A DNA stretch of 21,925 nt, taken from the IMG/VR virus record IMGVR_UViG_3300030102_003258, positions 4,047 to 25,971 of that record; one strand, given 5' to 3'. The notes below the pieces were generated by a model. That model was given only the letters and a program-made list of their open reading frames with translations. It was not told the origin of the DNA and did not search any database. Positions within the stretch are counted from its first letter, which is position 1. Every line of letters starts with the position of its first letter. The position numbers were made by a program, and so were the translations under genes. The stretch is from a virus. This document shows positions 1,286-21,925 of this stretch, piece after piece.

Positions 1286-1813
1286 CTATACTTCATTTCC
1301 CCAAACATCCCAACCTTTTCTTTTTTGTCTAGCAAAGATGTCAATTCTGTCGTTTCCTAATGGTTCAATCATTTCATAAAATTTATCAGGTTTCTGTGAG
1401 TGTCTAATATTTTCAGCTTGAAATATTAATGGAATAAGTTTTTTACCTTTACACCAAAAATCAGGTGTATTGTTATATCCTATGGCTATAAATTCTGCGT
1501 TCCATCTAAAACCAAACATTGGTTGACCTGATGATTTTCCAAATGTTTTTTCCCAAGCTCCCATGCACAAATATTTAAAACCCCAATTTTCTAAAATAGA
1601 TTTAGATTCAAAAATGTATTTTTGAATATTCCAAAGAAAAACCCAGCAATTATCTTTTGCTAAACTTTTTATTGGCATTTTTTTAATTTGTTCTAGTTCC
1701 ATTATAGGATAGTCCATTTCAACTTGATTAGACCTAATTTTTCTTTTAACTTTTTTTATCTTTCATGGTGGATCTATAACAATTATGTCGTATTTTTTAT
1801 TAGGAAAATTCAT
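1286..1813 (-). pseudogene. MT-A70-family adenine methyltransferase, interrupted by TGA at the catalytic DPPW motif
   Basis: An SAM-dependent N6-adenine methyltransferase of the small phage MT-A70 type. Reading from the ATG at 1813 gives residues 1-16 ending in YDIIVIDPP, then TGA at 1765-1763 (codon 17), then an open frame to the TAG at 1286. The family motif is DPPW, so TGA stands where TGG (Trp) is expected. The rest looks intact for 159 more codons: a CWVFLW strand, a HSQKPDKFYEMIE segment and a C-terminal RKGWDVWGNE, all familiar from this family. The ATG abuts the TAA of the upstream gene, as expected for the true start. Restart at the ATG at 1717 would give 143 residues without the catalytic motif. 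TGA is a normal stop in neighbouring genes, so a nonsense mutation or a sequence error is the likely reason. Confidence 0.85.
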
Positions 1814-1993
1814 TTAGTGCATTGTAACATCATCTTCTGGAATATCGTCAATGTATTGCTCTTTTAAAATTTGAGAAAAATCATGTGCTTCTTGCTCATC
1901 CTGAAAACCATAGAACTTTGTAACAACAACTGGTCTGCCTGTTGTTTTATCTTTCATGATGAATATCGCTGTTCTTAATATCAAATCTTTCAT
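1814..1993 (-). CDS. Hypothetical protein, start uncertain
   Basis: A small protein of 59 residues from the ATG at 1993, or 86 from an in-frame ATG at 2074. The shorter form begins MKDLILRTAIFIMKDK, a plausible beta-strand start, and has an AAGG about 13 bases upstream; the longer form has no visible ribosome-binding site. The C-terminal half carries an acidic helix (QDEQEAHDFSQILKEQ) and ends DDVTMH. The TAA is directly followed by the ATG of the methyltransferase gene, so the two are probably co-translated. It lies in the terminase operon. I do not recognise the family and no catalytic motif is visible. Confidence 0.6.
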   Translation of the reverse strand: MKDLILRTAIFIMKDKTTGRPVVVTKFYGFQDEQEAHDFSQILKEQYIDDIPEDDVTMH

Positions 1994-2110
1994 TTGTTTG
2001 TGTGTACCTTGTATCAATTTTAATCTAACGTCAAAAGTCAAAAATGGGGTATCGGCTCTCAAAAACCCCCACATCTAGTAATCTACAACCATAAATCCAC
2101 TAATTAAACC

Positions 2111-2169
2111 TTCCGATAATTAATCGTTAACGGAAATATTACTATTGATAATAAAAAGTTCTCAATAGT
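2111..2169. other. Two hairpins in the longest intergenic gap
   Basis: In the gap between the small-terminase gene and the next gene downstream there are two inverted repeats. The first is TTCCG-A-TAA (2111-2119) paired with TTA-A-CGGAA (2127-2135), one internal mismatch, seven-base loop. The second is ACTATTGA (2141-2148) paired with TCAATAGT (2162-2169), eight perfect pairs, thirteen-base loop. Neither has a clear run of T after it on the transcribed (minus) strand beyond a short TTT. They could mark a processing or attenuation point between terS and the genes that follow. No convincing gene was seen here; the tiny ORFs present have no ribosome-binding site. Confidence 0.4.
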
Positions 2170-2262
2170 GTTCATGTTTTGTTCTTATTCATGTGCAATA
2201 ACTATGTTTTATGTGTGCAAGAAATGACAACAACTCAAGTAAATCAACACTTCTAGCTTAAC

Positions 2263-2685
2263 TTAGTTCTGCCAGGAAATGCTAAGTGGCTCATTTTTAT
2301 CACCTTTTATTGTCAGTTCAGCAGCTTTTCCATATCTTTTACTGCTTATTTTAGACGCTGACCACTGCGAACTAGCAACAATCACCTTATATAAATTAAC
2401 TAAGTTCTGTCCGGCTTTGCCGTCAATATCTCCGTTTTCTATTTTAGCTTCTAACTCTAACCTTTTATCTTTTAAGTTTGAAAGCTCCAAATCAATAGCC
2501 AATTCTTTTGCCTTTTGATAACGATCCATCAATTCAGGATCTGCAACAAGTTCTTTTCTGAAACTAGTCCAAGTGTAATCTATTTCTGGCTTTTCAAATA
2601 CCTGTCTTATTGTAAGTCCATCGCTGAGATAATCTAATATCTGTTCTGTTAATTTTTTAGATAATTTTCTTTTTCTGCCTGCCAT
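2263..2685 (-). CDS. terS: Terminase small subunit
   Basis: The DNA-recognition subunit of the packaging terminase, which binds the phage packaging site and loads the large subunit. The 140 residues have the usual plan: a basic start (MAGRKRKLSKK), an N-terminal helix-turn-helix at about residues 11-45 including DGLTIRQVF, a long helical oligomerisation region at about 50-85, and a C-terminal SQWSASKISSKRYG at 106-119 of the kind seen in small terminases (W-x-A-x-K...K-x-Y-G). The ATG at 2685 follows AAGGGAT at a good distance. It lies in the same orientation as the large subunit but about 1 kb upstream of it, with two genes between. The DNA directly upstream holds several inverted repeats and could be the packaging site. 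Family call is strong by pattern, though small terminases diverge greatly. Confidence 0.85.
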   Translation of the reverse strand: MAGRKRKLSKKLTEQILDYLSDGLTIRQVFEKPEIDYTWTSFRKELVADPELMDRYQKAKELAIDLELSNLKDKRLELEAKIENGDIDGKAGQNLVNLYKVIVASSQWSASKISSKRYGKAAELTIKGDKNEPLSISWQN

Positions 2686-2700
2686 AATAATCCCTTTAGT

Positions 2701-2786
2701 GAGGTGGGCGTATAGAAAGGAAAGAAAGTAACGCCCAACCTCTAGTGATCACTTAATAAATACTAGCGAAAGGGTGAAGCTAGTAT
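2701..2786. repeat. Cluster of three inverted repeats upstream of terS
   Basis: GAGGTGGGCGT (2701-2711) pairs with ACGCCCAACCTC (2731-2742) with a single bulged base. AGTGATCACT (2744-2753) is a perfect ten-base palindrome. ATACTAGC (2760-2767) pairs perfectly with GCTAGTAT (2779-2786) around an eleven-base purine-rich loop. The first stem is G+C-rich compared with its surroundings. The cluster fills the gap just upstream of the small-terminase gene, where cos or pac sites often lie; it could equally be an mRNA leader structure or a terminator for the gene before it. Confidence 0.5.
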
Positions 2787-2816
2787 GCTTTTACTTATAT
2801 AACACAATATATAGTT

Positions 2817-3125
2817 TTAAAAGTCAAAAACACCTTTAGGCTTGAAAAAAGGTTTATTTTCGCTTGTTAATGGATTTTTTCTAATGATATTCTTTTTAAG
2901 CATATCATCTAAGATTAGCTTTGCAGTATAGCCACCAAACTTTTTATTTTTAATAATCCAAGTTAATTGTTCTGCAGCTAGCATACCGCTATTGTAATCA
3001 CTCCAAAGATTCATCGTAATTTCTAGCTTTTGAGCCTTACTATAATAATTGTTAAAAGTGTCCTCCAACTCCTTATCATTATAATAATATGGTCGTTCAA
3101 GAGAGGGGGGAGCGGTTTTAGTCAT
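2817..3125 (-). CDS. Hypothetical protein, possible second winged-helix partner
   Basis: A 102-residue protein starting at the ATG at 3125; a GTG three bases earlier is less likely. The gene overlaps the end of the upstream helix-turn-helix gene by eight bases (ATGACTAA) and has AAAGGGA about ten bases upstream, so translation is probably coupled. The N-terminus is proline-rich (TAPPSLERP), followed by Tyr-rich helices. Residues from about 53 on, with LTWIIKNKKFGGYTAKLILD and then MLKKNIIRKNP, look like a small winged-helix unit. I do not recognise the family. Tight coupling to a probable replication organiser suggests a partner in replication initiation or regulation, which is inference. Confidence 0.7.
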   Translation of the reverse strand: MTKTAPPSLERPYYYNDKELEDTFNNYYSKAQKLEITMNLWSDYNSGMLAAEQLTWIIKNKKFGGYTAKLILDDMLKKNIIRKNPLTSENKPFFKPKGVFDF

Positions 3126-3525
3126 CACTTTTAAATCCCTTTAGCTTTTTAAATCTTTTAGATCCCTTATTAATAATAGTATTTCTATAATTAGTATTAT
3201 CTTTATAATACTGCGTAGTTTTTGGGTAGGGTGATTGATCAGATTTTGACATAGTGACTACCCTATTTTTGGGTAATCTCAGATCATAATAATTAGCTGA
3301 TGATAACCTCTTAATAACCAAGTATTTATGCTGAACCAACTCCTCCTTACATTTCTGCAATGTATTAATAGAAAGACCCAATTTGGACTTCAAGTTGGAG
3401 TTTCGCAAGGTTCTAAAATTAGGTGAAAGGGATCTAATATAACAAAATAATAGCTTTGCGTCATTGGATAGCCTATCATCCAAAATCAAGCTATTTGGCA
3501 CCATTGTAAAACCGCTTTTTTTCAT
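3118..3525 (-). CDS. Winged helix-turn-helix protein, probable replication organiser or regulator
   Basis: A 135-residue protein with an N-terminal DNA-binding domain of the kind found in phage and plasmid replication initiators (RepA/DnaD-type, HTH_36-like). Residues 5-17 give GFTMVPNSLILDD, a common start for this fold. Residues 18-75 give the helices and wing, with LSINTLQKCKEELVQHKYL as turn and recognition helix and IKRL as the wing. The tail from about residue 95 is Lys/Asn/Tyr-rich and probably disordered. The ATG at 3525 lies just downstream of a good promoter and AAAGG/AAAGGG sequences. Copies of a TTTTGGGTA repeat lie within the gene and in its promoter, as would fit binding to its own gene for initiation or autoregulation. 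The function beyond DNA binding is inferred. Confidence 0.75.
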   Translation of the reverse strand: MKKSGFTMVPNSLILDDRLSNDAKLLFCYIRSLSPNFRTLRNSNLKSKLGLSINTLQKCKEELVQHKYLVIKRLSSANYYDLRLPKNRVVTMSKSDQSPYPKTTQYYKDNTNYRNTIINKGSKRFKKLKGFKSDD

Positions 3526-3675: not shown

Positions 3676-4167
3676 ATGATAAAAGCACAATTACAAAAAG
3701 ACTCTAACTTAGACAGAGAGTTCTTAAAAATCAATAAACCGGTTGGGATCAAAGATGGTTCAATATACTTTTTAGAAGAAATCTTTAAATATAAAGATGG
3801 TTTTAAAGGTGCAGTTGGTACAGTCCTTGATCCAATTACTCAGTCTGAAATTGATCAAAATAATGATTTAGACAATGCAACTGAATTCCATAGAGAATTA
3901 TGGCAACAGGCAGTTGAGGGTGGTCACACAGAACAATCATTAAGTGATTATGTTGAGGATTGTTTAAATCATCAGGATGGGGAATATCCAGGACATGATA
4001 ATTCATATTCTAATTTACATGATGAAGCTAAAAAACATTTTGATGATGTTGTAGTTACTTTTCATTGTTCAGGTGGTGGTAGATGTTTTAACAAAGAATT
4101 ATTGTCAACTTTTGATGAAGTTATAGATCAATCATTAATTGACTTAATTAAACAATATGAGGATTAA
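3676..4167 (+). CDS. Hypothetical acidic protein
   Basis: A 163-residue protein. The ATG at 3676 is chosen over an earlier one at 3625 because AAAGGGGG lies five bases upstream of it. The protein is acidic, rich in Asp, Glu and His, with a YPGHDNSYS segment near the middle and a TFHCSGGGRCF segment close to the C-terminus; the Cys/His content could mean metal binding, but no known site is clear. There is no signal peptide or membrane segment. It is the first gene of a short plus-strand cluster that follows the divergent promoter region, so it is probably expressed early and may counter a host function. I do not recognise the family. Confidence 0.8.
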   Translation: MIKAQLQKDSNLDREFLKINKPVGIKDGSIYFLEEIFKYKDGFKGAVGTVLDPITQSEIDQNNDLDNATEFHRELWQQAVEGGHTEQSLSDYVEDCLNHQDGEYPGHDNSYSNLHDEAKKHFDDVVVTFHCSGGGRCFNKELLSTFDEVIDQSLIDLIKQYED

Positions 4168-4588: not shown

Positions 4589-5266
4589 TTATTGTTCTTG
4601 AGTTGGTTTCTCTTGTTTACTACCTAAATCAAACATAATAGTTGCATTAAAAGAAAAACTAATTCTTTCTTCATTATCATCAGAGTTAAAAGGGTAAACC
4701 AAGTGCGTAAGTGAATTAGGAAATAATATCCAATCTCTTTCATTAGGCACTACCCTATAATTAACATCAGTAAACATACCCTCAGAACCCTCTATAAACT
4801 CAGTATTACCACTAAAGTCGTTATGACTCTTCGCATTGTCTGTAGGTTTCATTGATGTAGGGATCTGCAAATATCCTACGCAAGATAAATGATAGTTGCC
4901 TTTAATGTATTCTGTATGTCTATGGCAAGGATTAAAGTCATTTGGTTTGCTAATAACATACCAAGCTGAGTTAATTAATATTCTTTCAATCTTATCTTCT
5001 TTGTAATGTGCGTTTGCGTATGAAGCTATGATAGGGTCAAAAAATGCTTTTTTCCATTTCATCATAATTTGAGGACTTATTAAATATTCCTCAGATACAT
5101 GACCAACAAGACGTTTACCCCAATTATGCTGCACTTTCTTTTTTTCGTCTTTTCTTATTTGTTGTAAATCCTCTTTAAAATCTTTCATTAGTTCAAGAGG
5201 TAATGTTGCTTTAGCTAAAGTAGAACCAAATGGCTTAAATAATTTAAAATTTATTTTATCTTTCAT
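4589..5266 (-). CDS. 2OG-Fe(II) oxygenase (2OG-FeII_Oxy_5-like)
   Basis: A 225-residue member of the double-stranded beta-helix dioxygenases that use Fe(II), O2 and 2-oxoglutarate. Residues 102-119 (WYVISKPNDFNPCHRHTE) hold the first iron-binding part with His115 and His117. Residues 182-208 hold LFPNSLTHLVYPF with His188, then EERISFSFNA with Arg201, the usual 2OG-binding Arg and strand of this family. The LSCVGYLQIP between them is the expected core strand. The substrate is unknown; hydroxylation of a host protein or of a phage component is possible. The ATG overlaps the stop of the preceding gene as ATGA. It is last in a minus-strand unit with the adenine methyltransferase. Confidence 0.85.
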   Translation of the reverse strand: MKDKINFKLFKPFGSTLAKATLPLELMKDFKEDLQQIRKDEKKKVQHNWGKRLVGHVSEEYLISPQIMMKWKKAFFDPIIASYANAHYKEDKIERILINSAWYVISKPNDFNPCHRHTEYIKGNYHLSCVGYLQIPTSMKPTDNAKSHNDFSGNTEFIEGSEGMFTDVNYRVVPNERDWILFPNSLTHLVYPFNSDDNEERISFSFNATIMFDLGSKQEKPTQEQ

Positions 5267-5745
5267 AAATCACTTATAGGGTATAGCTCTTTTATTTCAA
5301 CCTTATAAGCAGGAGGTCTGTTAGGATGCCCAAAATTCGTAAGCCTTTGTGGCATATCTGTAATAAAAGGGTACCAACCCATAATTGAAAACTCAAAATT
5401 ACCTTCATCAATAACAAGAACATATCTAGCTCTTTTCTCATTAGGTCTAATCAATAAAAAATTATAATCTTTTCTCTTTTGTGATCTTATTTCTATTTTG
5501 TTTTGCATATCGGAATCTGTGTACCTAGCGTAACGATCTGAATAAGAACCATTAAAGTATTTGTTTTGTGATTTAGCAAAAGCAACTTCAGCACAAGCAC
5601 CCATGATACCAAGAACTAAGGTCTTTTCATCAGATCCTTTATAACCATAAGAAAAAGATTTACCCATTTTGAGGTTTTCTATAAATCTTCTTGTTGCTGT
5701 GTTAGCAGCTAGTTCAACTTCAAAAGGTTCAAGTTTTATCTTCAT
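5263..5745 (-). CDS. Putative PD-(D/E)XK-like protein, function unproven
   Basis: A 160-residue protein. The ATG at 5745 overlaps the TGA of the upstream gene as ATGA, so it is preferred over a TTG two codons earlier. The pattern is a helix with GACAEVAFAKSQNKY, an acidic loop, then IEIRSQ, then FLLIRP and YVLVIDEG, ending in a GWYPF segment. A Glu in the first helix followed by Asp and E-x-R on adjacent strands is reminiscent of a small PD-(D/E)XK fold with Arg in place of Lys, seen in unannotated marine phage proteins. If correct it may be an inactive or unusual nuclease. The call rests on pattern only. Confidence 0.6.
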   Translation of the reverse strand: MKIKLEPFEVELAANTATRRFIENLKMGKSFSYGYKGSDEKTLVLGIMGACAEVAFAKSQNKYFNGSYSDRYARYTDSDMQNKIEIRSQKRKDYNFLLIRPNEKRARYVLVIDEGNFEFSIMGWYPFITDMPQRLTNFGHPNRPPAYKVEIKELYPISDL

Positions 5746-6338
5746 ATCCAATCAATAGTAGGTTTACCTTTAAAACCTTTTTCCCAAATAAACCAACCGA
5801 AAGCTAACATACCCCCACCATGAGTTTTAAGTCCACTATTTGGGTTGGTAAATGTGATTCTTTTTGAAAAAATATATATTTGTTTGATAGGTGTTTCTTG
5901 AAACATTTTTTGTCTAGCGATACCCTCTAAAAATGTTATTCTACATAAAAAAGCTACCTTCTTATTTACAGATTCAACGGCTTTATAAACAAAAGGTAAA
6001 GATAATTTAAAAGGAGGATTAGTAATAATATTATCAAATTTTTTATTAGTTTGTAAAAAATCAATACCTGTTTCACCATAACCTCTATCAATCAAATCAG
6101 AGCTGTAAACATTATAACCTTTATCAATTAATATTTTAGAAATAGCACCATCACCACAAGCACACTCCCAAATATTTCCCTCAAACTTTTCTTTTTCAAG
6201 TAACGGCAAAATTCCTGAAGGAGGTGTTGGGTAAAAATCATTTTTTTCTCTTGTTTTTGTTATATCATGACCAGCTAGTCTTAATTTTGTTTTTGATTGT
6301 GCTTGACTTCTTGCTAATGCTTTATTGACTTGATTCAT
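5742..6338 (-). CDS. DNA adenine-N6 methyltransferase (NPPF type)
   Basis: A 198-residue SAM-dependent methyltransferase. Motif I, for SAM binding, is WECACGDGAISKIL at 57-70, followed by the acidic strand end SSDLIDRG at 79-86. The catalytic motif IV is TNPPF at 106-110, preceded by FDNIITNPPF as in N6-adenine enzymes. The sequence before motif I (DFYPTPPSGILPLLE) is the usual lead-in of phage and integrated-element methyltransferases. The C-terminal part has few recognition-domain residues, so specificity cannot be read. AAAGGATAAG lies upstream of the ATG at 6338, which overlaps the preceding stop as ATGA. The likely role is protection of phage DNA from restriction. Confidence 0.85.
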   Translation of the reverse strand: MNQVNKALARSQAQSKTKLRLAGHDITKTREKNDFYPTPPSGILPLLEKEKFEGNIWECACGDGAISKILIDKGYNVYSSDLIDRGYGETGIDFLQTNKKFDNIITNPPFKLSLPFVYKAVESVNKKVAFLCRITFLEGIARQKMFQETPIKQIYIFSKRITFTNPNSGLKTHGGGMLAFGWFIWEKGFKGKPTIDWI

Positions 6339-6586
6339 TTCTTATCCTTTCTATTTTCCCTAAACATTTTTAGCATTTCATAATAAGCCTTACCACCGGC
6401 ATATTCTATTTCTTTACAAAGTTCTTTTTTTTCAATTACTTTTGGAACATTATCAAGTTTTGTATGCCAAATTTTTTTTGCGTAACAATCAGCACATAAA
6501 GGTTTGCCGTTATGTTCTATTAATGCTGTCATTACGCATTCGCTGCATTCTTTCCATTTTTCCACTTCAGGATATAAATAACTCAT
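6335..6586 (-). CDS. Small zinc-finger-like protein
   Basis: An 83-residue protein with two CxxC knuckles, Cys14-x2-Cys17 and Cys31-x2-Cys34, separated by 13 residues, the layout of a zinc ribbon. The rest is a charged helix ending RENRKDKK. It overlaps the metallopeptidase gene upstream by 20 bases and the methyltransferase gene downstream by four. It may bind DNA, RNA or a protein partner; nothing more specific can be read. Confidence 0.75.
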   Translation of the reverse strand: MSYLYPEVEKWKECSECVMTALIEHNGKPLCADCYAKKIWHTKLDNVPKVIEKKELCKEIEYAGGKAYYEMLKMFRENRKDKK

Positions 6587-6872
6587 TTAAACACTTTCTC
6601 AAAGACCTATTCTTTTTAAGTATCGGTGCAAACTCTTGACTTAAATAAGCTGTCTTTTCCTCTCCTATCTTATTAATATCAACTCCATTTAAATCACAAA
6701 TAATATGCCAAAGCTCATGATAAATAGTTTTAGCCATATTCATTTTTGATTGATTTGGGTCTATAGTTAGTTGTAATTTACTACCTTCATACAAACCCCA
6801 ACAATCTTTTAATGTTTTCCAATAAACTTTTATTTGTTTTTGTTTATATTTAATCTTGCGAAATTTCTGCAT
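6567..6872 (-). CDS. Small HExxH metallopeptidase-like protein
   Basis: A 101-residue zincin-like protein. Residues 49-57 give TIYHELWHI with the zinc-binding HExxH as HELWH at 52-56. About 15 residues further on, GEEKTAYLSQEF could supply the third, acidic ligand. The N-terminal half forms the short strands expected before the active helix, with YEGSKLQLTIDP. The size and order recall the ImmA/IrrE or SprT-like peptidases in phages, which often cut regulators, but the target here is unknown. It overlaps the cytosine methyltransferase gene by 23 bases and the zinc-finger gene by 20, so it belongs to one transcript. Confidence 0.8.
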   Translation of the reverse strand: MQKFRKIKYKQKQIKVYWKTLKDCWGLYEGSKLQLTIDPNQSKMNMAKTIYHELWHIICDLNGVDINKIGEEKTAYLSQEFAPILKKNRSLRKCLNELFIS

Positions 6873-7860
6873 CTACTATTGCCTTACCTATTTCATAAGC
6901 TATTTGTGGCACAATACTATTACCAAGTGCTTTTATTCTGTTGGATCTATCTTTGTCCAATTCATAGGATATCCCATGAGGAACTCCACAAAGTTCGGAT
7001 TGAGTTTGCCACCAGGTTTTCCATGATTTTCTTTTGCTATTTGAATTGGTAATCTCATTTGTGTGTTGTCTAAATACTCTTTCTTCCATTGTGTTATGTT
7101 CCCTGTATCCTTCCAATCCCTTGCTGATGGTGTGTAATACATTTTTCTCTCCAGGTAGAGCATCGCATCCGACAGCTTTGCTCCGAATGTGCTGTTCGGT
7201 TTGTTCTTCTTTCGGAGTATAAAACCTCCAGATTTCGTTTGCTCTACTCTCTTGCTCTGTTCCCCTCCCTCTTCGCAACCTACTGTTGGAGTTGGAAACA
7301 TCTTTATTGCTACTGTTAATGGTGTTCCCCCTTGTTTGTATTTCTTTGTTCTCTCCGATGCTGAATCTTGAGTTGGAGTTGGCAATAATCCAAACTCTTT
7401 TTCTTTGATGCCAAGCACCGATGCCTGAAGCTGGAATAATAAGACATTGGACTTGGAAACCTTCTTTTTCCAAATCAGTTTGCACCTGTCTGAGTACCAA
7501 GCCGTTGTTGATGTTAATAATCCCTTCAACATTTTCGCCAACAAACCATTTTGGTTTTGTTTCGGCAACAACTCTAATAGTTTCATCCCAGAGGTAACGA
7601 TCATCGTCTTGTCCTCTTCGTTTTCCTGCAACTGAGAATGGTTGGCATGGGAATCCTCCTGAAACAATGTCGGCTGTGTAGTTTGATCCTTTAACATTTC
7701 TAATATCCTCCTCTATTGGTATATTTTTAAAATTTTTCTGCAATACTTTTTGGCAAAATTTGTCTTTTTCTACAAATCCTATGGTTTTGATTCGTTTTGT
7801 AGCTTCCATACCTAGCGAAAAACCGCCAATTCCGCTAAATAAATCAAGTAATCTGAGCAT
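6850..7860 (-). CDS. dcm: DNA cytosine-C5 methyltransferase
   Basis: A 336-residue enzyme that transfers a methyl group from SAM to C5 of cytosine. Motif I is DLFSGIGGFSLGM at 6-18, motif IV is GGFPCQPFS with catalytic Cys72, motif VI is ENV at 109-111, motif VIII is QRKRVW at 152-157, and motifs IX/X are represented by RIKALGNSIVPQ at about 308-319. The target-recognition region between is Ser/Asn/Arg-rich with repeated NSNS. That region and much of the catalytic part are also open in a second frame for 254 codons (see the nested gene). The ATG at 7860 has no clear ribosome-binding site. It is the first gene of the minus-strand unit down to 4589 and would protect DNA from restriction. Confidence 0.95.
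   Translation of the reverse strand: MLRLLDLFSGIGGFSLGMEATKRIKTIGFVEKDKFCQKVLQKNFKNIPIEEDIRNVKGSNYTADIVSGGFPCQPFSVAGKRRGQDDDRYLWDETIRVVAETKPKWFVGENVEGIININNGLVLRQVQTDLEKEGFQVQCLIIPASGIGAWHQRKRVWIIANSNSRFSIGENKEIQTRGNTINSSNKDVSNSNSRLRRGRGTEQESRANEIWRFYTPKEEQTEQHIRSKAVGCDALPGEKNVLHTISKGLEGYREHNTMEERVFRQHTNEITNSNSKRKSWKTWWQTQSELCGVPHGISYELDKDRSNRIKALGNSIVPQIAYEIGKAIVDAEISQD
6933..7697 (-). CDS. Long ORF nested in the cytosine methyltransferase gene (+1 frame), PTPT/MGYP protein
   Basis: A 254-codon ORF wholly inside dcm, read one base forward of its frame. The ATG at 7697 has AGGAGG (7712-7707) nine bases upstream, made from the dcm codons for Glu-Glu. The product has LLPTPTQDSA at 104-113, MFPTPTVG at 133-140, YYTPSARDWKD at 187-197 and LNPNFVEFLMGYPMNW at 232-247. 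I know this set of motifs from ORFs seen with phage cytosine methyltransferases. The PTPT motifs arise from CCAACTCCAAC repeats that encode NSNS in the dcm frame. A stop-free run this long in AT-rich DNA is very unlikely by chance. The function is unknown. It may be a second product or an evolutionary echo of a frame change in the recognition region. Confidence 0.55.
   Translation of the reverse strand: MLKDQTTQPTLFQEDSHANHSQLQENEEDKTMIVTSGMKLLELLPKQNQNGLLAKMLKGLLTSTTAWYSDRCKLIWKKKVSKSNVLLFQLQASVLGIKEKEFGLLPTPTQDSASERTKKYKQGGTPLTVAIKMFPTPTVGCEEGGEQSKRVEQTKSGGFILRKKNKPNSTFGAKLSDAMLYLERKMYYTPSARDWKDTGNITQWKKEYLDNTQMRLPIQIAKENHGKPGGKLNPNFVEFLMGYPMNWTKIDPTE
7707..7712 (-). promoter_or_regulatory. 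AGGAGG ribosome-binding site for the nested ORF
   Basis: A perfect AGGAGG on the minus strand, nine bases before the ATG at 7697 and inside the methyltransferase coding sequence (Glu50-Glu51, codons GAG GAG). It is stronger than the site of the host gene itself, which has none visible. Confidence 0.6.
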
Positions 7861-21132: not shown

Positions 21133-21786
21133 TCACTTTTTAAACCAAGCTGGTAGTCCTAAATGCGGTCTTCTATCATTTACATTCTGATCTGCATTTT
21201 TAGACTTTTGGTCATTGTAGTGTAGAAAAACTTGACAGCAATCGTTACCCTGAAATTCTTCTCTCCAATGTTCTAGTTCCATACCTCTATAGACTAGCAT
21301 ATCACCAGGTTTTAAAACGACTCTAGTTCCTTTATTGTTGCTTGATACTGTAATTTTTTTACCATCAGGAATACCTACATTCTTTTTAGGTTCTAAATAT
21401 ATTGGCCACAAATCACCACCTAGATTTAATGTTGTAGATATTTCACAACTAAATCTATCTTTATGTCTATGCAACACATCTCCTGTTTTATATATTCTTG
21501 CATAAGAATATGTAGGATTTAATTTTAATCCTGTTTTCTTTTCCATAACAGGTAAAGTTCTCATCAATAAAGTTTCCATAGCTATATCAGCATAATGCGA
21601 ATATGTATTTGGAACTTGTGAATCAGCCCAAGTACCCCATTCTTCTGTAAAGTTAGAAATGTATCTTTGATCAAATAAAGTTCTTGCAACTTGTCTTTTT
21701 AATAAAAAATAATTGTAAACAAATGTTGCTATCTCTTTTGGTACAGCTTCTTTGATTACACAATATTTATTTTTTTGGAAGCTCAT
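21133..21786 (-). CDS. 2OG-Fe(II) oxygenase (prolyl-4-hydroxylase-like)
   Basis: A 217-residue dioxygenase. The ATG at 21786 is preferred over one at 21822 because AAGGAG lies five bases upstream. The core is YSYARIYKTGDVLHRHKDRF with the iron ligands His108 and Asp110 (H-x-D), LNLGGDLWPIYLE as the next strands, then LKPGDMLVYRGMELEHWRE with the third ligand His173. CCQVFLHY ends the fold; the usual 2OG-binding Arg is not obvious. Related genes are common in marine phages, where substrates are unknown. It lies just downstream of a second oxygenase, which it overlaps by 20 bases. Confidence 0.85.
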   Translation of the reverse strand: MSFQKNKYCVIKEAVPKEIATFVYNYFLLKRQVARTLFDQRYISNFTEEWGTWADSQVPNTYSHYADIAMETLLMRTLPVMEKKTGLKLNPTYSYARIYKTGDVLHRHKDRFSCEISTTLNLGGDLWPIYLEPKKNVGIPDGKKITVSSNNKGTRVVLKPGDMLVYRGMELEHWREEFQGNDCCQVFLHYNDQKSKNADQNVNDRRPHLGLPAWFKK

Positions 21787-21925
21787 TATTACTCCTTTCT
21801 TTTGATATTGCTGTTTCAACAACTTTAATATTCCAATGTATAAATCTAAATGGTTCTATTCCTGCATCTACTGCAAACTGATGTGGAACATAACCTGGAA
21901 ATACAATCATAGTTCCTGGTTTTGG
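21767..21925 (-). CDS. C-terminal part of another 2OG-Fe(II) oxygenase (runs off the window)
   Basis: A partial frame of 52 codons that enters from beyond the right end of the window and stops at a TAA (21769-21767). It reads KPGTMIVFPGYVPHQFAVDA and then EPFRFIHWNIKVVE. P-G-x-(M/L)-(I/V)-x-F-P-x-x-x-x-H with a following (F/Y)-R-x-x-(I/L)-x-(F/W)-N is the last part of the 2OG oxygenase fold, with the iron-binding His and the 2OG-binding Arg. The stop lies inside the next gene. Together with the gene after it this forms a tandem pair. The N-terminus is not in the window. Confidence 0.75.
   Translation of the reverse strand, partial: PKPGTMIVFPGYVPHQFAVDAGIEPFRFIHWNIKVVETAISKERSNNELPKK

Follow-up and report, generated by a model that had tools for sequence, protein, structure and literature searches.

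Does the cytosine methyltransferase (dcm) gene of this phage hold a second gene in another reading frame, and what might the product of such a gene do? The question was raised by a sequence-only reading of the window, which is the whole 21,925-nucleotide stretch of viral DNA analyzed (IMG/VR record IMGVR_UViG_3300030102_003258, positions 4,047 to 25,971). That reading had described a 254-codon open reading frame in the +1 frame of dcm, preceded by its own AGGAGG, and had offered two interpretations: a true overlapping gene pair or a gene that switches frame in order to change its specificity.

Two open reading frames share one stretch of DNA

The nested ORF was confirmed on the minus strand at 7697..6933, and its AGGAGG (7712-7707) was found exactly nine bases ahead of the ATG at 7697. 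The PTPT motifs, the LNPNFVEFLMGYPMNW segment, and the CCAACTCCAAC-type repeats, which encode NSNS in dcm and PTPT in the +1 frame, were all present as described. For reference, the ORF in the dcm frame is designated alpha and the nested ORF beta. All 254 beta codons lie inside the alpha gene, in its +1 frame. The features of the locus are as follows.

6850..7860, minus strand: alpha gene (dcm frame), C5-cytosine methyltransferase with motifs I-VIII and X, 336 aa (PF00145, E=2e-54; TIGR00675, E=3e-48)
7801..7851, minus strand: motif I of alpha, LLDLFSGIGGFSLGMEA (sequence; HhaI alignment)
7707..7712, minus strand: Shine-Dalgarno sequence AGGAGG of beta (sequence; conserved in relatives)
6933..7697, minus strand: beta gene (+1 frame of dcm), 254 aa, ATG start, phrog_1008
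7383..7697, minus strand: N-terminal part of beta, residues 1-105, over alpha motifs IV-VIII (beta omega, 0.29-0.43)
7621..7659, minus strand: motif IV of alpha including the catalytic Cys, GGFPCQPFSVAGK (sequence; HhaI alignment)
7387..7410, minus strand: motif VIII of alpha, HQRKRVWI (sequence; HhaI alignment)
6940..7380, minus strand: alpha stretch between VIII and X, low complexity, rich in S/E/N/R/K (dcm omega, about 0.7-2; stop-free; composition)
7299..7382, minus strand: beta module 1, PTPTQDSASERTKKYKQGGTPLTVAIKM (module families across 144 betas)
7140..7298, minus strand: beta module 2, FPTPTVGCEEGG...FGAKLSDAMLYLERKM (module families across 144 betas)
7008..7139, minus strand: beta module 3, YYTPSARDWKDTG...HGKPGG (the automatic split merged modules 2 and 3)
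6954..7004, minus strand: motif IX-like segment of beta, LNPNFVEFLMGYPMNWT (beta omega, 0.05-0.14; profile matches)
6877..6939, minus strand: motif X of alpha, RIKALGNSIVPQIAYEIGKAI (dcm omega, 0.05-0.07; +1 frame unconstrained)

Alpha carries motifs I, IV (PCQ), VI (ENV), VIII, and X in one Dcm-like chain, and HhaI could be aligned across its residues 2-160 (E, about 2e-21). Motif IX is absent from the alpha chain, and an IX-like segment is found in the +1 frame of the same DNA. Motif X of alpha begins where the beta gene stops.

The nested frame is kept open beyond chance

At the window locus the +1 frame is free of stops for 259 codons. When codons were shuffled synonymously with the dcm protein held fixed, none of 20,000 shuffles reached this length (median longest +1 run, 81 codons; 99.9th percentile, 192), which bears out the suggestion that the ORF is longer than chance would allow. 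The median longest run fell at 53 codons when the shuffles used the codon usage of other genes in the window. In the remaining alternative frame the longest run was only 52 codons.

A search of viral contigs with the +1 protein yielded 80 loci, and the relative frame was identical in all of them. In 57 nonredundant viral relatives, 4 stops were observed in the +1 frame, compared to 521 expected from synonymous shuffles; shuffling with the dcm protein preserved gives about 9 +1 stops per gene. The other alternative frame of these relatives had 1254 stops versus 1617 expected. A search by the +1 protein is biased toward loci in which the +1 frame is conserved, and it was therefore repeated with residues 1-160 of the dcm frame only. 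In the relatives found with this query, the recognition region was covered by a long +1 ORF wherever their length allowed judging. Relatives with a second frame full of stops were looked for among these sequences, and no such case was encountered. The motif LNPxFVExLMGYPxxW was located in the +1 frame at 151 of the 163 pooled loci and in the dcm frame at one (L082), and the rest were mostly cut by contig ends.

Bacterial and archaeal genomes were scanned with the beta alignment. Beta lay in the +1 frame of alpha at 78 of 80 loci (the best 80 of 233), and no stand-alone beta was shown among these best 80. They came from Bacteroidota, Clostridia, Bacilli, Pseudomonadota, and other groups, and rarer arrangements may be missed in a set consisting of the best 80 of 233 loci picked by motif pattern.

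The alpha frame is also kept open. Between motifs VIII and X the 57 relatives had 0 alpha-frame stops versus 374 expected if beta alone mattered, a count that is partly selected because the relatives were chosen with an uninterrupted dcm frame (only full-length matches were required, and very few were skipped). Therefore, both full-length chains appear to be needed.

Three individual records are of interest for their annotation or structure. L002 (KT997847, 1294-2207), which is the closest record with annotation, has a break in the alpha frame near codon 45 and is annotated with a short methyltransferase and the beta ORF; this beta has one stop ahead of its start and another close to its end. 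In Mycobacterium phage XFactor (L256, 1501-2371), the beta frame alone is annotated, as a hypothetical protein, and the alpha frame is unannotated, an instance of one frame obscuring the other. In L082 (about 1645-3144), an indel moves the beta IX segment into the dcm frame, which gives a 500-codon open frame that is either a natural fusion or a sequencing error.

The start signals of beta are conserved

The ATG of beta was kept in 54 of the 57 relatives, compared to 23.7 expected from synonymous codon choice, and the mean pairing of its Shine-Dalgarno sequence was -9.8 kcal/mol versus -4.6 under synonymous resampling, figures that come from related sequences and are not independent probabilities. 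The Shine-Dalgarno sequence varies across relatives (GAGGAGG, AAGGAG, GAGG) without being lost. A +1 stop stands two codons upstream of the beta start in 42 of the 57 relatives.

Selection acts on different frames in different regions

Synonymous and nonsynonymous change in both frames, a comparison that the sequence-only reading had proposed, was evaluated in 27 pairs of relatives: each single-base difference was assigned a class according to what it does in either frame, and the classes were set against all possible changes. Both frames are selected as proteins, depending on the region. Upstream of beta and in the motif X region, dcm omega was 0.05-0.14 and +1 omega about 0.8-4. Over motifs IV-VIII, constraint was strong in dcm (0.11-0.16) and moderate in the +1 frame (0.29-0.43). 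Between VIII and IX the order was reversed, with omega values of 0.10-0.20 for the +1 frame and 0.67-1.39 for dcm; all omegas were obtained by counting, with the transition weight held fixed, and few changes fall in the double-synonymous class, yet the reversal is large. It had been suspected that the second frame is under tighter constraint than the first in the recognition region, and this proved to be so. In the IX segment the values were 0.05-0.14 for the +1 frame and 0.8-2 for dcm.

The alpha sequence between VIII and X is thus selected only to stay open. It is free in its amino acids yet free of stops, and therefore alpha is read through to motif X; the stretch is probably a flexible linker. 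The nested +1 ORF is a genuine second gene, and the stop counts, the selection on two frames, and the conserved start strongly support the overlapping gene pair that had been envisaged.

Beta carries an IX-like motif that alpha lacks

It had been suggested that the 254-residue product be searched against protein databases and structure predictors. This placed beta in phrog_1008, a cluster that PHROG labels 'DNA methyltransferase', and gave no Pfam or PDB counterpart: beta alone matched no Pfam family, its profile matched none of the PDB sequences, and its AlphaFold model, which is of low confidence (pLDDT 66.7, pTM 0.30), had no PDB match. The N-terminal part in this model is a helix-helix-hairpin of moderate confidence with conserved residues W76 and L90, and this part (residues 1-105) is a candidate alpha-binding domain. 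A structure model of alpha made without an alignment had a pLDDT of 30.7, too low for interpretation.

The C-terminal LNPNFVEFLMGYPMNW of beta was placed on the HhaI segment RKLHPRECARVMGYPDSY by a low-scoring second HMMER alignment. When alpha residues 1-160 were joined to beta residues 110-254, the matches to PF00145 and TIGR00675 continued through the IX segment of beta. A model of canonical motif IX scored at least 5 bits in 27 of 114 betas, always at the IX-like position, compared to 1 of 114 in the alpha frame of the same DNA and none in shuffled sequences; the segment of the window beta scored a weak 0.9 bits. Motif IX of canonical phage Dcms is encoded in the dcm frame, where a strict pattern finds it in 60 of 78. 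The +1 stops of these 78 genes are near expectation (1289 versus 1389), and no beta-type IX was found in their +1 frame.

In 10 relatives (L022, L032, L035, L042, L048, L056, L069, L071, L081, and L086), beta extends beyond the alpha stop by about 150 aa. This C-terminal extension is a conserved domain, YRTPTAMD...KTKIEHWFRKD.CFSYPSI.DW, for which Pfam and PHROG gave no confident match.

The central part of beta is an array of reshuffled modules

In 144 betas, the region from the N-terminal part to IX could be divided into 0-6 units, which have a median length of 41 residues and mostly open with xPTPxxxD. An automatic split, in which some units were merged, distinguished 68 rough families and 87 different orders. 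Where the DNA of two relatives was at least 90% identical over alpha codons 1-160, the module order differed in 233 pairs and agreed in 22. Window relatives whose alpha DNA is 97-98% identical had the orders A-B, K-B, C-A-B, A-a, V-B-D, B, or L-2, and near-identical modules were shared by backbones less than 72% identical.

An exchange of specificity units would look like this reshuffling. Enzymes of Bacillus phages have tandem recognition domains (PMC8936443), and by analogy we infer that each beta module may read a DNA sequence. One tentative possibility, to which we would give a little under an even chance, is that phages reshuffle PTP modules of about 41 residues, each open in two frames, and so change the sequence that is methylated while the catalytic alpha chain stays nearly constant.

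The proposal that the gene switches frame to change its specificity was not supported. Almost all complete relatives keep both frames open along their length, and the nested frame starts at a conserved site of its own. The locus also lacks a tandem repeat that might slip: a 14-nt unit occurs at 3 scattered sites but forms no array, and phase variation via repeats was rejected on this ground. Specificity may well change by exchange of modules rather than by change of frame.

A probable two-chain methyltransferase and its alternatives

Very probably, the nested ORF is the gene for the beta subunit, and the dcm ORF the gene for the alpha subunit, of a two-chain C5-cytosine DNA methyltransferase. 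Beta is probably the chain that determines which DNA sequence is methylated, and the two cooperating proteins would then be encoded by a single stretch of DNA. Most likely, one mRNA would be translated twice, alpha from its own start and beta from the internal Shine-Dalgarno sequence. In alpha, an unconstrained linker would connect the catalytic domain (I-VIII) to motif X, at the place where other Dcms have their recognition region. Beta would consist of its N-terminal part, the xPTPxxxD modules of about 41 residues as the putative target recognition region, and motif IX. The two chains would assemble into one active enzyme to which beta supplies the recognition region and IX. Such an enzyme probably modifies phage DNA against host restriction, with a specificity that would come from the beta modules.

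It is extremely improbable that dcm is the sole gene and that the open, conserved-looking +1 frame is a by-product of the dcm protein and its codon usage. Overlap with a conserved protein does yield shared +1 residues, chiefly over motifs IV-VIII, and the canonical set has slightly fewer +1 stops than expected. However, the dcm-preserving shuffles introduce about 9 stops per gene where relatives typically have none, the +1 protein is conserved between VIII and IX whereas the dcm protein is not, and the Shine-Dalgarno sequence and ATG of beta are conserved beyond synonymous expectation. As a full account, this explanation is refuted by the constraint specific to the +1 frame.

The joined alpha-beta reading matches dcm profiles through IX, and the indel in L082 shows that IX can move into the dcm frame, as might be expected if a single fused chain were made by programmed +1 frameshifting from alpha motifs I-VIII into beta near VIII. 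Such a chain is very unlikely as the explanation: it would require a second shift back to reach motif X and would have no need of an alpha frame open throughout the linker, while beta owns a Shine-Dalgarno sequence, an ATG, and upstream stops, and its N-terminal part is under selection, yet would go unused if the shift occurred near VIII. A shifted product might nevertheless be made alongside the two separate chains. We consider it very unlikely that beta, though a real protein, has a role other than that of a methyltransferase subunit, such as that of a regulator or of a protein for evading restriction whose gene happens to overlap dcm. Beta accompanies alpha at all but a few loci, it has the motif IX that is absent from alpha and present in canonical Dcms, and gp79 of mycobacteriophage SheaKeira unites the beta family and motif X in a single chain; on the other side, beta alone has no Pfam match, and its binding to alpha or DNA is a prediction.

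A second class of nested ORF in phage Dcms

Among HhaI-like phage Dcms in which IX and X are both in frame, many carry a +1 ORF over motifs IV-VIII, which ends with a conserved SLSDILEEQVDQKYFLS-type segment and corresponds to protein cluster phrog_16143. Examples are L348, L319, L323, L370-L449, and others among viral contigs, as well as Streptococcus phage IPP53 (L257) and a Coprococcus phage (L255). In 80 relatives found with a dcm-frame query, this frame had 1 stop versus 340 expected from GFPCQ to VIII, and +1 omega was 0.08-0.19 just after VIII; stops reappear downstream (620 versus 464 expected). In SPbetaL5 a SLSDILEEQVDQKYFLS-like segment is located in the dcm frame. If the module exchange proposed above is real, the movement of small-domain pieces into the +1 frame of dcm would be a general habit, and this second class another instance of it.

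Neighboring genes and significance

The window contains two further likely DNA methyltransferase genes on the minus strand, at 1286-1717 (MT-A70, 1e-18) and 5742-6338 (phrog_799, 2e-61). With these, the phage appears to have three or more modification enzymes. These genes are consistent with protection of phage DNA from restriction. Other minus-strand neighbors include a 2OG-Fe(II) oxygenase by Pfam (4589-5266, 1e-14) and a gene (21133-21822) that matches a PHROG labeled ferrochelatase (1e-47), a label that may be wrong because, in our opinion, the protein looks like an oxygenase. The gene directly downstream of alpha (6567-6872, minus strand) encodes an HELWH metalloprotease-like motif and has weak SprT/IrrE-like matches below the cutoff. 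Several neighbors in the window had no confident family in Pfam and PHROG matching.

To our knowledge, long overlapping gene pairs in which both frames are selected and a function is split between them are rare in prokaryotes and phages. Here, one stretch of DNA probably encodes two subunits of a single enzyme, with the specificity part in the frame that annotation often omits; some records annotate one frame only. If this is correct, many phage and prophage 'Dcm' entries represent half an enzyme, so expression of the dcm frame only, or prediction of specificity from it, would fail. The locus family would then also be a natural library of recognition modules.

Comparison with known systems

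M.AquI (alpha/beta) and SheaKeira gp80/gp79 resemble the window locus in being split enzymes with motifs I-VIII in the first chain and a recognition region in, or reaching into, the second. They differ in that X stands together with IX in their second chain, whereas X of the window enzyme is in alpha. The genes for gp80 and gp79 overlap by about 100 nt only, compared to full nesting in the window. SheaKeira gp79 has PTP modules, an MMGYPxxW segment, and motif X in one chain; it matches phrog_1008, the family it has in common with the window beta, at 4e-70 and the Dcm C terminus in phrog_116 at 5e-6. By these matches, gp79 shows a beta-type protein outside full overlap and ties it to a Dcm C terminus.

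Recognition units of the SPbeta group of phage methyltransferases are about 40 residues in size. Multispecific phage C5-methyltransferases (SPbeta group, M.SPRI, M.H2I) carry tandem recognition domains (PMC8936443). The window system is similar in having tandem units, as candidate recognition domains, in a phage enzyme. The SPbeta-group enzymes, however, are single chains with recognition units in the frame of the catalytic motifs (SPbetaL5), whereas the units of the window are in beta and in the other frame, and the likeness of PTP modules to SPbeta units is one of arrangement. In PHROG, the clusters for beta (phrog_1008) and alpha (phrog_363 and phrog_116) are all annotated 'DNA methyltransferase', with no mention in their descriptions of the overlap or of the division of labor.

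M.EcoHK31I is an E. coli enzyme (YGGCCR), and M.EaeI is probably similar. The gene for its small subunit is nested in that for the large subunit in a different frame, and methylation is reported to require both chains. This two-chain C5-methyltransferase is reported to carry motif IX on a different subunit from motifs I-VIII and X, and its predicted recognition domain was placed in the large subunit (PMC3404938); the sequence is X82231 (PMC6174562). The window locus likewise keeps I-VIII and X together in its large chain, with IX in the small chain, a likeness based on arrangement, not on alignment. Because M.EcoHK31I has the same split of motifs, this kind of enzyme is already known. Unlike what was predicted for M.EcoHK31I, the recognition region of the window enzyme is constrained in nested beta and free in alpha, and unlike that of M.EcoHK31I it is an array of exchangeable modules. 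The window gene also differs in being a phage gene with no restriction endonuclease recognized nearby; the E. coli and plasmid relatives that were examined lie in prophage-like or plasmid surroundings with no recognized partner endonuclease. What is new in comparison to M.EcoHK31I is the breadth of the arrangement, across phages and many bacterial phyla, and a recognition region that lies in the nested frame and is built of rapidly reshuffled PTP modules of about 41 residues.
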